Shown here: positions 403 through 41,944 of the stretch, one piece after another | Numbering within the stretch: position 1 is the first letter of the stretch | How the letters are laid out: the number at the start of each line of letters is the position of its first letter | Assembly (NCBI RefSeq): GCF_002214805.1 | Contig: NZ_CP019914.1 | Span: 682,001 to 746,000, forward strand | DNA: 64,000 nucleotides | Origin: Brachyspira hampsonii | Lineage (GTDB): Bacteria > Spirochaetota > Brachyspiria > Brachyspirales > Brachyspiraceae | Reading direction: 5' to 3' | Translations under genes and position numbers: made by a program | The notes under the pieces: model-generated | Databases searched by the model: none | Told to the model about the DNA's origin: nothing | What the model saw: the letters and a program-made list of their open reading frames with translations, nothing else

Positions 403-656
403 ATTTTAAAATTATTATTTATTATTATTGCTAATAAAAATTGTTCGCTAAAAATGTATAGCAAATGAATTTGCTATATGCTCACAATTTTTATATTAGG
501 CTTTCTAGTATTTTAAAATTATTATTTATTATTATTGCTAATAAAAATTGTTCGTTAAAAATCTATAGCAAATGAATTTACTATACGCTTATAATTTTTA
601 TATTAGGTTTTCTAGTATTTTAGAATTATTATTTTCTTATTATTGCTAATAAAAAA
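403..656. repeat. 107-bp tandem repeat carrying a palindromic element (2 copies plus a partial third)
   Basis: Units start at 403, 510 and 617 with an exact 107-bp period; the third stops after about 40 bases. Each full unit contains a 61-bp palindromic core (434-494 and 541-601) with outer arms ATAAAAATTGT/ACAATTTTTAT and inner arms TATAGCAAAT/ATTTGCTATA. Copy 2 differs from copy 1 by an inner-arm change that stays a G-U pair in the minus-strand RNA. The reverse complement matches the two elements at 41655-41796. On the minus strand the copies lie downstream of the tRNA-Lys/tRNA-Glu genes and their terminator. Confidence 0.85.
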
Positions 657-686
657 CAAAAAAGCCGTACTAATTATCAGTACGGC
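651..686 (-). terminator. Terminator of the tRNA-Lys/tRNA-Glu unit
   Basis: Inverted repeat GCCGTAC (664-670) / GTACGGC (680-686). Read on the minus strand it is followed by a T-rich run, immediately downstream of tRNA-Glu. Confidence 0.75.
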
Positions 687-794: not shown

Positions 795-867
795 TGAGCC
801 AAGAAGGGTTCGAACCTTCGACAACCGCCTTAAAAGGGCGATGCTCTACCGACTGAGCTATTGGCCC
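795..867 (-). tRNA. tRNA-Lys (anticodon TTT)
   Basis: Minus-strand cloverleaf with acceptor stem GGGCCAA/TTGGCTC, discriminator A, D arm AGCTCAGTCGGTAGAGCA and anticodon loop CTTTTAA (anticodon TTT). CCA is not encoded. It lies 27 bp upstream of tRNA-Glu in the same orientation. Confidence 0.95.
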
Positions 868-7214: not shown

Positions 7215-8513
7215 CTATTTATTTTCCAAGTTATTATCTTTATCAGTATTTTCTATTTTATTTACTATAACCTTGTCTATTCTGGCACCGTCCATATCAA
7301 CTATTTCTAAATTTAAATTTTTCCATTCTAAAGATTCGCCCTCTCTAGGCACATGCTGTAATAATTCTAATATTAAACCGCTTATAGTATTATAATGATT
7401 GGAAGCATTTTCATCTTCTATTTCAAAATACTCTAAGAAATCATACATTGGACATTGCCCGTCTACAAACCAACCGCCATTCTTTCTTTTTCTAATATCT
7501 TTACTGTCTTTTCCCTCGGTTACAGAACCTACTAAAGCCTCAAATATATCGCTTTGAGTAATCATTCCATCTATATTTCCAAACTCATCTGATACAAGCC
7601 CTATTTTTGTATTATTCTTTTTCATATCTTCAAGAACCAAATAAACTTCCATATTATTATGAAAATAATTGGCTTTCTTCACAAATTTTTCTATTTTAGC
7701 TTTTGATGTATTGAGTTTATCAAATATATCAGTTACCCTTACAACCCCCAAAATATTATCCAAATTTTTATCTGCAACAGGATAAGCAGAAAAAGAATGT
7801 TTTGATACTATTTTTTTTATCTCTTCGTTACTCATATTAACATCTAAAAATACTATATCATTTCTATGCGTCATTATAGACTCTATTTTTCTGTCTCCCA
7901 AAAAGAAAGCTCTCTCTATAATATCCTGTTCTATCTCCTTAACTTCTCCGCCTTGTCTTCCCTCTTCTATCATAGATTTTATTTCTTCTTCAGTTATAGG
8001 AGTTTTATCATCTTTTATTCCTAAAACTCTCGAAACTAATAATGCACTATTGGATAACACCCATACAAATGGAGCACCTATCTTAGAAAGTATTGTCATA
8101 GGAGCCGCAACAACTTTTGCTATTCTTTCAGGCATTACCATTCCTATTCTTTTAGGTACTAGTTCTCCGAATATTAATGTAAGATATGTTACTAATGCCA
8201 CCACTAATACCTGAGCTATTACAGAAGAATAAGATGAAGGAACATTTATTTTGATAAGTAAATTGGCAAGCTCTTTAGCAACAGTATCGCCTGAGTAAAT
8301 ACCTGTTAATATACCTATTAAAGTTATACCTATTTGTATTGTAGATAAAAATTTATCGGGATTATCTGCTAAAGTTAATGCTGTTTTTGCACCTTTATTT
8401 CCTTCTTTGCTGTCTTTCATTAATGAAGATTTTCTTGCAGAAATTACTGCTATTTCTGACATGGCAAAAATACCATTTAAAAGTATTAACACTATTATTA
8501 TTATTATATCCAT
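7215..8513 (-). CDS. HlyC/CorC (TlyC-like) family membrane protein, DUF21-CBS type
   Basis: A 432-residue protein with an N-terminal DUF21/CNNM membrane domain (helices at about 1-20, 55-80, 95-120, 135-155), a CBS-domain pair at about 205-335 (ITEEEIKSMIEEG entry motif, then MTHRNDIVFLD) and a C-terminal CorC_HlyC domain ending near residue 420. Relatives are linked to Mg2+/Co2+ efflux, and some were named haemolysins in Brachyspira and other genera; the membrane topology argues for ion transport rather than a secreted toxin. Start has an AAGGA site. The stop lies just after tRNA-Leu on the other strand. Confidence 0.85.
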   Translation of the reverse strand: MDIIIIIVLILLNGIFAMSEIAVISARKSSLMKDSKEGNKGAKTALTLADNPDKFLSTIQIGITLIGILTGIYSGDTVAKELANLLIKINVPSSYSSVIAQVLVVALVTYLTLIFGELVPKRIGMVMPERIAKVVAAPMTILSKIGAPFVWVLSNSALLVSRVLGIKDDKTPITEEEIKSMIEEGRQGGEVKEIEQDIIERAFFLGDRKIESIMTHRNDIVFLDVNMSNEEIKKIVSKHSFSAYPVADKNLDNILGVVRVTDIFDKLNTSKAKIEKFVKKANYFHNNMEVYLVLEDMKKNNTKIGLVSDEFGNIDGMITQSDIFEALVGSVTEGKDSKDIRKRKNGGWFVDGQCPMYDFLEYFEIEDENASNHYNTISGLILELLQHVPREGESLEWKNLNLEIVDMDGARIDKVIVNKIENTDKDNNLENK

Positions 8514-9185
8514 TTTAATTTATCCTTAAAAATAAAAAAATATTTATTAGATTTAAAAAATTGAAAAGAAAATAATACGATTTTATAGAGGGAAGTATTA
8601 AAATATTTGTATAAAAAGAGTAAGTACTGAAAGTATTATCCTTAATAAAATTATTTTCTATTATTGCTTATAAAAAATACATATTAAATTTTTAAATATA
8701 TAAACGAGCAGCTAATAGCTAACAAAAAAACTTGTAAGCTATTTTTAAGCTAGTTTAGCTTTAGCAATAATGAATATATATTATAATATAATATAAATAA
8801 AACTTCAAGTATTTGTAAATAAAATTTTACTATATAATATTAATTTGTTTTTAATAATCTATTATAATTGTTTCAAAACTAATTTTATTTATTAATTGAG
8901 TGCCGACGAAGTAGATATATGGTGTCAGCATATAAAAGACTACATATTTATGTACTAAAATAGCAAATTATACAACATAGAAAACATTATTTTTATAATT
9001 GATAAATAATGAAAATTTCATATACAATCCTGTCAGGTGCTTTTGAAAAAAATCTAATATAGTGAATTTTTTTACTATTTATTTTGTGTAAATATAAAAA
9101 TGCATATATTACAGTATTTGCAGCTTTTGCGGCGGGAAAAGTTGATAAAATAACTTTTAAATAATTTTAATTATTAAATAAAACA
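8514..9185. other. Non-coding gap with degraded repeats
   Basis: No credible gene. 8649-8770 holds ATTATTGCT- and AGCAATAAT-bounded hairpin-prone sequence resembling the heads of the 107-bp units at 403. 8881-8967 matches 17371-17446 in a broken way (shared AATTTTATTTATT, then CATATTTA near a TACT-AAATA stretch), suggesting an old dispersed repeat. 9110-9145 contains a short G/C-rich patch (GCAGCTTTTGCGGCGGG). Confidence 0.45.
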
Positions 9186-9214: not shown

Positions 9215-9258
9215 ATAAAAATTAAATAATAATTAAATTTATAATAAAGGAAAATTTG

Positions 9259-10323
9259 ATGAGCGATAAAAAGGCAAAAGCTATTTTACTGTTATCCGGA
9301 GGCTTAGATAGTACACTTGTAGGAGCCATATTAAAAAGAGAAAATATTGATGTGCTTGCTTTAAGATTTGTTACGGGATTGGAATATTCTGTCATAAAAG
9401 AAGAATTACTTGAAATATATAGTGAAGATCCTGCTAAAAAAGCTGCAGATTTTCTTAATATACCAATAAGATTTGTATCATTGAAAGATGTTTATTTAGA
9501 TATGTTTTTAAATCCTAAATACGGCTATGGAAGTGCAATTAACCCATGTTTAGACTGTCATATATTAATGCTTAAAACTGCTAAAAAAATAATGGAAGAT
9601 GAAGGATTTGATTTTATAGCGACAGGAGAAGTAAAAGGACAAAGACCTATGAGTCAGAAATCTCAGGACTTGATAAATGCTATAAAAGAAAGCGGACTTG
9701 AAGGAAAATTATTGAGACCCTTATCTGCTAAACTTTTACCTATAACTAAAGCTGAAGAAGAAGGACTTATAAACAGAGAAAATCTTTATGATATATACGG
9801 AAGAAGCAGAAATGTACAGATGAAATTGGCAGAAGAGTTTGGCATAACAGACTACCCTATACCTGCAGGTGCCGGATGTTCTATAGTGGATAAAGGATAT
9901 GCCAGAAGATATAATGATTTAATTTCTAATAATGGGAAAGATATACTTAATATAGAGCTTATGCAGTATTTAGCTATAGGAAGACATATAAGAATGAATA
10001 AAAATGTTAAACTTCTGCTTGGAAGAAATGAAAAAGAAAATGATGCTTTGGAGAAAAGAAAAAGAGTAAACTGTATAATATTAAAACCTAATTATAATAG
10101 AGGACCTTTAGGATATTTAGAAATATATGATGATAATGCAGAAAATATTGATAAGGATATAATATATAAATCAGCTATGATAATGGGATATTTTTCAAAA
10201 GAGGAAAATGAAACTCTGTCAATAACAGCATCATACTATAATGATTGTAAAGAATATAAGAATGAAGTAATACAAATAAATAATAAAGAATCTAAAAATA
10301 CTAAATTTGAGCAGATAGTTTAA
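9259..10323 (+). CDS. PP-loop ATPase, MnmA/ThiI-like tRNA thiolation family
   Basis: A 354-residue N-type ATP pyrophosphatase. The PP-loop motif SGGLDST is at residues 13-19. A CLDCH motif near residue 95 and a later AGAGCSIVD segment near 210 supply candidate catalytic cysteines, as in enzymes that activate uridine for sulfur transfer. The C-terminal ~130 residues are not MnmA-like and may bind RNA, as in stand-alone relatives that carry an NFACT-R/DUF814-like region. ATG 9259 is preferred over the upstream in-frame TTG because AAAGGA lies 6 bases before it. The exact modification is inferred, not shown. Confidence 0.75.
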   Translation: MSDKKAKAILLLSGGLDSTLVGAILKRENIDVLALRFVTGLEYSVIKEELLEIYSEDPAKKAADFLNIPIRFVSLKDVYLDMFLNPKYGYGSAINPCLDCHILMLKTAKKIMEDEGFDFIATGEVKGQRPMSQKSQDLINAIKESGLEGKLLRPLSAKLLPITKAEEEGLINRENLYDIYGRSRNVQMKLAEEFGITDYPIPAGAGCSIVDKGYARRYNDLISNNGKDILNIELMQYLAIGRHIRMNKNVKLLLGRNEKENDALEKRKRVNCIILKPNYNRGPLGYLEIYDDNAENIDKDIIYKSAMIMGYFSKEENETLSITASYYNDCKEYKNEVIQINNKESKNTKFEQIV

Positions 10324-40764: not shown

Positions 40765-40793
40765 TTTACTTTTATATTTATTTTTTGTATAAT
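40765..40793 (+). promoter_or_regulatory. Promoter of the Rpn gene (leaderless arrangement)
   Basis: TTTACT (40765-40770), a 17-bp spacer and TATAAT (40788-40793). The ATG begins at 40800, only six bases after the -10 box, and no Shine-Dalgarno sequence is present. Confidence 0.7.
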
Positions 40794-40799
40794 AGTATT

Positions 40800-41669
40800 A
40801 TGAGCAGAAGAGATATTAATGTTTTAAATGATTATTTTGTGAGGTATTTATTTTCATCACCAGACAGTAATCCTATACTGCTTGATTTTATCAATTCAAT
40901 AATGCTTGACTCTAATATGAAAACTTTTAGATCAGTAGAGATACTTACTCCATTTAATTATAAGGAAAATTATGAAGATAAGGAAACAATAGCAGATGTA
41001 AAATGTATTACACAAAATGGAACTGTAGTTATAATAGAAATTCAAATTCAAGGTAATTCAAGATTTCCAGAACGAATATTATATTATTGGGCTTCTAATT
41101 ATAGCAAATTATTAAAACATGGAGAAAAGTATGATGCTTTAACTCCAGTAATTAGTATCAATTTACTCAATTTTAATTTAGATGATTCAAATAATATTCA
41201 TTCATGCTATATGATTTATGATACCAATAATAAAAGATTACTCACTGATCATTTGCAAATTCATATAATTGAACTCAAAAAATTTAAATATAATTTATTA
41301 CAATCAGATTTAAACTGTTGGCTTAAATTTTTTACAATGAAAGAAAAAGATAATAAGGAGGTTATTATGTCAGAATTAGTAAAAGAAAAACCTATAATGG
41401 AAGAAGTACAAAAAAGATACAATAACTTTATTAAAGACAGACTGATGATGAACGAATATGATAAAAGGCAGGCATATTTATATGGTAATCAAATAATGCT
41501 TGAAGAAGAAAGAAGATTAGGAAGAGAAGAAGGTATAAAAGAAGGTATAGAACAAGGTAAAAAAGAACAGAAAATATCTATAGCTAAAAGCTTCAAAAAT
41601 GCAGGCATAGATATAAAAATTATAAGTGAAAACACAGGATTAAGTATAGAAGAAATAAAAAAATTGTGA
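40800..41669 (+). CDS. Rpn-family recombination-promoting nuclease / putative transposase
   Basis: A 289-residue protein of the PD-(D/E)XK nuclease Rpn family, whose characterised E. coli members are DNA endonucleases that promote RecA-independent recombination. The opening NDYFVRYLFSS-PDS matches the family, and the nuclease core is visible as Asp66 (TIADVKC), then Glu80-x-Gln82 (VVIIEIQIQG). The C-terminal part has a charged helix (EEERRLGREEGIKEGIEQGK) and a final SxxTGLSIEEIKKL tail typical of these proteins. ATG 40800 is used; it has no ribosome site. The stop codon lies within a palindromic element. Confidence 0.9.
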   Translation: MSRRDINVLNDYFVRYLFSSPDSNPILLDFINSIMLDSNMKTFRSVEILTPFNYKENYEDKETIADVKCITQNGTVVIIEIQIQGNSRFPERILYYWASNYSKLLKHGEKYDALTPVISINLLNFNLDDSNNIHSCYMIYDTNNKRLLTDHLQIHIIELKKFKYNLLQSDLNCWLKFFTMKEKDNKEVIMSELVKEKPIMEEVQKRYNNFIKDRLMMNEYDKRQAYLYGNQIMLEEERRLGREEGIKEGIEQGKKEQKISIAKSFKNAGIDIKIISENTGLSIEEIKKL

Positions 41670-41796
41670 GCATCTAGTAAATTTATTTACTAGACACAAA
41701 TAGCGAGCAAGTTTTTTATGTCTAAATAATAATAAAAAATTTGTGAACATCTGGCAAGTTTACTTGTCAGACACTTTTAGTGAACAAATTTTTTAT
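41655..41796. repeat. Two tandem palindromic elements at the end of the Rpn gene
   Basis: Cores 41655-41719 and 41732-41796, 77 bp apart. Copy 3 has an inner stem CTAGTAAAT/ATTTACTAG and an outer stem of 11 of 12 paired bases; the Rpn stop codon is at 41667-41669 just inside it. Copy 4 has an inner stem CTGGCAAGT/ACTTGTCAG and a perfect 13-bp outer stem ATAAAAAATTTGT/ACAAATTTTTTAT. Reverse complements of 434-494 and 541-601 belong to the same family. The remaining gap to 41940 is A/T-rich with no gene. Confidence 0.85.
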
Positions 41797-41944
41797 ATAT
41801 AAACAAAGAAATAGAAAAATTATAATAATAAAAATTGTTAGTGCTTGATATTTGTAAGAATGTCAGTGTCTTTAAAAAACAAGTTTTTTATAATTAAATA
41901 AATAATTTTTTATAAATCAAAAATTTTTAACTATTAAAAATAAA

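Follow-up and report, generated by a model that had tools for sequence, protein, structure and literature searches.

The first few hundred nucleotides of this stretch of the Brachyspira hampsonii genome raise the question of what a palindrome that stands in tandem beyond two tRNA genes, and again beyond a nuclease-family gene, is conserved for: as a piece of DNA, or as the fold of an RNA. The initial annotation of the window (the whole stretch of 64,000 nucleotides analysed here) had described two 107-bp tandem units with 61-bp palindromic cores and had suggested a structured RNA or DNA element under selection. The cores are indeed found at 434-494 and 541-601 of the minus strand, each unit in the window being composed of a 5' extension AATAATAATTTTAAAATACTAGAAAGCCTAAT followed by core and tail, and the 107-bp period of this array recurs at G000:C1:1341393-1341785. 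Compared with shuffled sequences, copies 1, 3 and 4 fold with z of -3.9, -3.8 and -5.2 respectively, and copy 2, in which the 5' GA reads AA, the outer stem is broken and the fold is weak, folds no better than the shuffles (z -0.9). The coordinates are collected in Table 1.

Table 1. Copies of the element in the window, the parts of copy 1, and neighbouring genes and signals
Feature	Position	Strand	Score or remark
Copy 1, core and tail	423-494	- (sense = minus)	97.5 bits, covariance model R1
Copy 1, outer stem	484-494 with 434-444	-	
Copy 1, tandem GA/AG	482-483 with 445-446	-	
Copy 1, two-pair segment	480-481 with 447-448	-	
Copy 1, inner stem	470-479 with 456-465	-	loop 466-469
Copy 1, bulge ATTTTTA	449-455	-	7 nt
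Copy 1, tail TAGCAATAATA	423-433	-	
Copy 2, partly degenerate	530-601	-	78.4 bits, model R1
Two 107-bp tandem units	399-505, 506-612	-	99/107 identical
Partial third unit, end of 3' arm and tail only (TTTTTTATTAGCAATAATA)	628-656	-	
Intrinsic terminator between tRNA genes and copies 1-2	664-686	-	terminator scan
tRNA-Glu and tRNA-Lys, same-strand genes upstream of copies 1-2	693-767, 795-867	-	
Weak degenerate copy, TATAAAC subfamily	8695-8772	+	30.5 bits, E 0.0017
PD-(D/E)XK nuclease family gene (PF12784, PDDEXK_2), upstream of copies 3-4	40785-41669	+	E 1.2e-45
Copy 3	41657-41728	+	core 41657-41717
Copy 4	41734-41805	+	core 41734-41794
Fifth copy, degenerate	41828-41898	+	E about 0.03

Both groups of copies had also been described as lying 3' of a gene in their own orientation. 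Copies 3 and 4 do so directly, the last codons and the TGA stop (41667-41669) of the PDDEXK_2 gene being contained in the 5' arm of copy 3, and copy 4 is succeeded by AAAGAAATAGAAAAATTATAA, a diverged repeat of the end of that gene (EEIKKL stop and KEIEKL stop). Copies 1 and 2 likewise follow the tRNA-Lys and tRNA-Glu genes, but beyond a clear terminator, and in this position past the end of the tRNA operon their transcription may depend entirely on read-through or come from elsewhere. Different, partly inverted remnants stand at the equivalent site of other species, which fits an insertion into a tolerant spacer and not a tRNA-specific function. The weak copy of the TATAAAC subfamily sits in the intergenic region between 7215..8513(-) and 9256..10323(+).

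Read in the sense strand, the element (about 72-107 bp) has an outer stem of about 9-11 bp, inside which a 5' GA stands opposite a 3' GA (tandem G·A/A·G), then two pairs, usually G-C and C-G, and an inner stem of about 10 bp, whose loop is short or branched. A bulge interrupts the 3' side only, and is followed in order by the two pairs, the GA, the outer stem and the tail TAGCAATAATA. Among 158 parsed distinct copies this bulge measures 7 nt in 115 and 8 nt in 32, with the consensus AYUUUUA and a terminal A in 82-96%; GA/GA, which the parse did not demand, is present in 117, the rarer fillings of the site including TT/AA and TA/TA, i.e. Watson-Crick pairs. The conserved parts are the internal motif GA-GC ... 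AYUUUUA-GC-GA and the 3' tail UAGCAAUAAUA, and the same plan is kept by outer stems as diverse as AAAAATTGT, AAAAAACTTGT, AAAAAAATC, AATAGT, GCTATAAAC, AAGCAATAAAC and AAAAC. Variants of the plan itself also occur. Eight 69-bp units GCGAGCC...GGCGAGCATAGCAATAATA at G000:C1:923576-924070 (L170) have almost no outer stem together with the same GA pattern and tail, and at G000:C1:893-896 kb (L255) a second type of hairpin, GAAAAAGCC...GGCTTTTTC followed by GAGCATAGCAACAATA, lacks the GA mismatch, its outer stem being perfect, and has the same tail; a similar perfect-stem variant is found at 1410047 (L260).

Two known folds were dropped on anatomical grounds, the second of them more tentatively. 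A kink-turn needs tandem sheared G·A pairs directly beside a 3-nt bulge, whereas here two base pairs separate GA/AG from a bulge of 7-8 nt. Integron attC sites are characterised by a conserved GTT/AAC in the outer (R) boxes and by an IntI recombinase; the AAC beside the GA is missing in several subfamilies, e.g. GCGAGATTTTTT and GCGAGTTTATA.

A scarcity of other genomic copies, which would have spoken against the initial annotation, is not what is found. A blast of copy 1 against its own genome (one 3.19-Mb contig) returns 81 matches, many of them in tandem arrays with array-specific periods (72, 82, 107 or about 190 bp), and a covariance model built from 20 subfamilies (R2; R1 was built from 15 copies) recovers about 109 sense copies in the same genome. 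A sequence-free structural descriptor, with a chance rate of 2-6 per 64 kb, was too loose for counting. Copies are present in 25 of 26 Brachyspira genomes, their number ranging from 0 to about 110 per genome, with one to five in most small-genome species and 25-110 in large genomes; no element was found in any of the 367 other Spirochaetota searched, three of the same family included, and among the genomes searched it is restricted to Brachyspira. Searches of Rfam returned only the tRNAs for the window and only chance-level matches for the elements (E>3; none for L171 and L183), and literature searches on Brachyspira repeats, structured RNAs or UTRs yielded nothing on this element. The family is best read as a new one among the transcribed palindromic repeats, a broad kind already known, and its unusual traits are the near-strict sense orientation and the long bracketing duplications without a known transposase, both of which are considered below.

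Several arrays deserve mention in their own right. Those of near-identical units at G000:C1:3041454-3043257 and 2861342-2862004 could vary in copy number between strains, and may overlap with the published Brachyspira VNTR typing loci. Seven 72-bp tandem elements (L254, G000:C1:2655281-2655783) stand directly before the start of a prfB-like gene with a AGGGGGTATCTTTGAC-type frameshift site, a start similar to that of release factor 2. Elsewhere the element is nested in a longer repeat beginning with CCCTAYTACGCTCTGCGTGCC and ending with GGAAATGTAGGAAAGCGGGAT, in at most nine copies about 150 bp apart (L125, G000:C1:1269600-1271100; L112, 22.7-23.4 kb; L113, 61.6-62.0 kb), which is probably a composite or larger palindromic repeat. 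One copy (L083/L249, G003:C150:1021-1092) lies between phage-head-type genes, decoration- and capsid-like as judged by eye.

Pairing is kept throughout the family in the face of extensive sequence change. The path C-G, T-G, T-A, C-G quoted earlier for one inner-stem pair of the four copies is present in the alignment (columns 24/36). The 15-copy set contains 11 doubly changed pairs, none of 500 shuffles being as good, and among the 20 subfamilies both sides have changed in 21 of 23 pairs (112 cells against 32 after shuffling), with a covariation score of 0.681 against 0.217 (0/500 shuffles). Cells are paired in 95.8% against 70.1% in the shuffles, a percentage flattered by the choice of subfamilies as clear copies, the double-change count being the safer measure; sliding the partner by 1-3 columns lowers the pairing from 96% to 38-48%. 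Outer and inner stems are almost completely different between subfamilies, yet paired. Compensation is thus far above chance in both sets, where changes uncompensated above chance would have told against the earlier proposal. At the 3' end of pgk several compensated pairs of the inner stem differ together between species, a pattern that resembles unit replacement as much as stepwise change.

The claim of a structured element under selection therefore stands for the family, by virtue of this covariation, but not for each locus. In orthologue comparisons the copies at 877310, 960020, 1174408 and 251054 erode, at several of these without compensation, and those at 2871661 and 842502 stay. Since orthologous copies erode, the fold belongs to the family and to young copies, and a function at individual loci, or a necessity for any one gene, is doubtful.

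Lying in the direction of transcription, as remarked for the copies in the window, is a rule of the whole family. Between same-strand genes the element runs with the genes in 34 cases and against them in 1 in its own genome (p 2e-9), and in 48 and 1 at loci of other species; earlier tallies agree. Copies occupy UTRs and intercistronic gaps. About half stand no more than 45 nt from the stop codon before them, and between a third and a half (31 of 58 in other species) no more than 20 nt from the start codon that follows. The stems themselves point to the acting strand: as tallied by a parser neutral between the two pair types, G·T exceeds A·C by 129:42 over all copies and by 57:21 with one representative per 90% cluster (p 6e-5). 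Counts throughout are phylogenetically non-independent, many copies being array members or orthologues. Duplex DNA, or a palindrome acting in either strand, would give a ratio of 1:1, so that the excess argues for the sense single strand. The acting form is likely to be single-stranded sense RNA, on the orientation as well as on the G·T excess, part of which could come from transcription-linked C-to-T mutation.

Beyond what the initial annotation described, the element is also mobile, its sites being filled or empty between species. At 842502 both element and duplication are absent in G004, the sites at 877310 and 960020 are empty in G006, and the subfamily at an argC-argJ-like junction varies from species to species, some having no element there. 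Direct repeats above the 99% control level bracket 19 of 126 arrays (1.3 expected), the 19 representing about ten independent places, among them pgk, a chemotaxis-receptor-like gene and an ankyrin-repeat-like gene (named by eye from the sequence); a ribBA-type 3' end has the same arrangement by eye. These repeats are copies of the local gene end, variable in length (37-139 bp), and the downstream one begins 0-5 nt past the end of the element in 17 of the 19. They are not the short fixed-length target-site duplications of MITEs. A MITE would also have terminal inverted repeats common to the family and matching an IS in the genome; the outer stem forms an inverted repeat, of a sequence that varies among subfamilies. 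In the remaining 107 of the 126 arrays no bracketing repeat is detectable; old duplications in AT-rich spacers may have been lost.

In the cleanest case (G000:C1:1757597) the element and a 40-bp duplication separate two genes, both whole, which in G004, G006 and G009 overlap at GATARATGAG with a single copy of the duplicated stretch. Repeats start at A-rich positions (AG^AAA) in several cases, of which too few are independent for a rule. At 633816, ATAAAAATYTTTAT closes both the last repeat of G005 and the only one present in G006; it can be read as an element that has lost its centre. Insertion directed by replication was rejected, copies on both strands being intermixed along the chromosome (judged by eye).

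Our preferred reading, to which we assign a probability of about 0.55, is that these are Brachyspira-specific mobile repeats which act as RNA and spread with long gene-end duplications. The form recognised would be the sense RNA hairpin, not duplex DNA, and the recogniser most likely a ribonuclease or RNA-binding protein that processes or stabilises mRNA at the gene boundary, perhaps as RNase III acts on the CREE of Neisseria and RNase E on the ERIC of Yersinia. The variable duplications suggest widely staggered breaks or template switching, and spread may be pictured as insertion by either route, in which the end of the upstream gene would be duplicated and both neighbours thereby left intact. 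A more ambitious version, namely that of a new class of mobile RNA-acting element which spreads without a Y1 transposase or recognisable reverse transcriptase, lands or survives nearly always in sense only, and duplicates 37-139 bp of the upstream gene end so as to pry overlapping genes apart undamaged, is offered tentatively and with some scepticism.

Three candidate movers were considered and rejected. A REP-associated tyrosine transposase (Y1_Tnp, PF01797) is absent from all 26 Brachyspira genomes, with the control positive in 5 of 14 genomes, which removes the RAYT/REP system as mover; nor was a GTAG/CGTC tetranucleotide found at the hairpin end, the aligned copies beginning ATAAAAATTG... 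and ending ...TAGCAATAATA. For a retroelement, SINE-like or group II derived, the RVT_1 profile (PF00078), which a strongly diverged reverse transcriptase could escape, has no match in the own genome or in most element-rich genomes and is uncorrelated with copy number. PDDEXK_2 genes, encoding Rpn-like nucleases, number 22 in the own genome, with a range of 0 to 40 over the Brachyspira genomes. The element follows at least eight of these genes, in most cases with the stop codon inside the first arm. Their counts do not track copy number across species, one genome (G001) having 25 such genes and 1-3 copies and another (G017) one gene and 13-16 copies.

These results bear on the possibility that the element is a selfish palindrome at the level of DNA, MITE- or REP-like, whose folded single strand is the substrate of a nuclease or transposase, such that only folding copies move and orientation reflects tolerated insertion. 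The decay of single copies in families that stay structured, the polymorphic sites bracketed by direct repeats and the eight or more copies or arrays after PDDEXK_2 genes would all be accommodated. However, neither the sense orientation (34:1 and 48:1) nor the G·T excess is expected from it, none of the 26 genomes has a Y1/RAYT transposase, PDDEXK_2 counts are out of step with copy number, and the target duplications made by transposases are usually far shorter than the bracketing repeats, so that we regard this explanation as unlikely.

Sense orientation at gene ends would follow naturally if the inner hairpin and U-rich bulge were a Rho-independent terminator, the outer arms being an elaboration. 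At the 3' end of pgk two genomes (G010 and G016) have a plain terminator, a hairpin with a T-run, at the site which in other species is occupied by an element of closely similar inner hairpin and seemingly degenerate outer arms; judging from pgk, inner hairpin and U-rich bulge can serve as a terminator. Yet the terminator scan, which called two ordinary terminators beside them, did not call copies 1 and 2; such common bulges as GATTGAA and CCTTAAA make poor U-tracts, with conservation of the terminal A; and elements, sometimes six or seven in tandem, stand some 10 nt upstream of start codons, a place in which a strong terminator would shut off the gene. On the strength of the uncalled window copies, the poor U-tracts and the arrays just before start codons, the element does not appear to be a general terminator, and termination as its explanation is improbable.

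Less probable again is a cis-regulatory RNA of which each copy regulates its own gene, as an attenuator, a riboswitch-like element or a site for an RNA-binding protein, and is conserved for that purpose. Placement right before ribosome-binding sites (in other species, 31 of 58 at no more than 20 nt from a start) and the retention of the element across species, with compensated stems, at pgk and argC-argJ are what it would predict, but the neighbouring genes are functionally unrelated, copy number changes from 0 to about 110 between species, orthologous copies erode and Rfam holds no match. That there is no function or recognition at all, and that palindromes, which like tandem arrays are prone to template switching, are homogenised during replication with compensated changes arising by mutation alone, agrees with the whole inner stems seemingly swapped as units at pgk, yet is very improbable indeed, as the G·A/A·G mismatch, which 117 of 158 copies retain, would disappear under copying from arm to arm, conservation extends to the unpaired bulge and tail, and orientation is left unexplained.

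If the preferred reading of mobile repeats acting as RNA is true, element-rich Brachyspira genomes hold dozens to about a hundred copies of one gene-boundary RNA motif, which would be likely to affect the ends of mRNAs in these gut spirochaetes, a genus with an RNA biology so far scarcely described. The insertion process, which matches none of the transposases tested, has left a clean record in the bracketing duplications. The strong covariation gives, with the covariance model and the conserved internal motif, a means of looking for the recognising protein.

How does such an element compare with known systems? The RNase III signals of the T7 R1.1 type are intercistronic hairpins of about 60 nt with two stems split by an asymmetric internal loop; unlike the Brachyspira element, they are not known to be mobile or to form a repeat family, and the likeness may serve as a lead. 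The pneumococcal BOX, RUP and SPRITE families are small interspersed repeats that are transcribed and whose predicted RNA folds are conserved (PMC3049150), but of different architecture, and MITE-type target duplications and IS-related ends have been proposed for them, whereas the Brachyspira element lacks short duplications. REPs and REPINs with their RAYT are high-copy spacer palindromes, mostly downstream of genes and thought to be transcribed, for which the same argument from G·T pairs has been used (PMC3733652); the Brachyspira element differs in having neither GTAG/CGTC tag nor Y1_Tnp/RAYT (26 genomes), in its greater length and in its internal asymmetric motif.

Closer parallels are found in Neisseria and the enterobacteria. 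The CREE/NEMIS of Neisseria are mobile palindromic repeats of about 100 bp, in about 120 copies and partly in mRNAs, whose hairpin is bound or cut by RNase III, and the ERIC hairpin is recognised by RNase E (PMC2649163, PMC2229807). The inverted-repeat ends of CREE are fixed, and CREE further possess a core, with promoters or IHF sites; the Brachyspira element has stems that vary between subfamilies, a conserved internal GA/bulge motif, a nearly constant sense orientation and bracketing repeats of 37-139 bp. The ERIC/RU-1 of enterobacteria are imperfect palindromes of about 127 bp, co-transcribed with genes and having an orientation-dependent effect on mRNA stability (PMC2229807); no sequence relation to the Brachyspira element was found or is claimed, and that account of ERIC makes no mention of near-strict sense orientation or long gene-end duplications. 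The best reading by analogy is that the Brachyspira repeats would be comparable to CREE and ERIC as transcribed hairpin repeats, minus the transposases of the REP type and the short target duplications.
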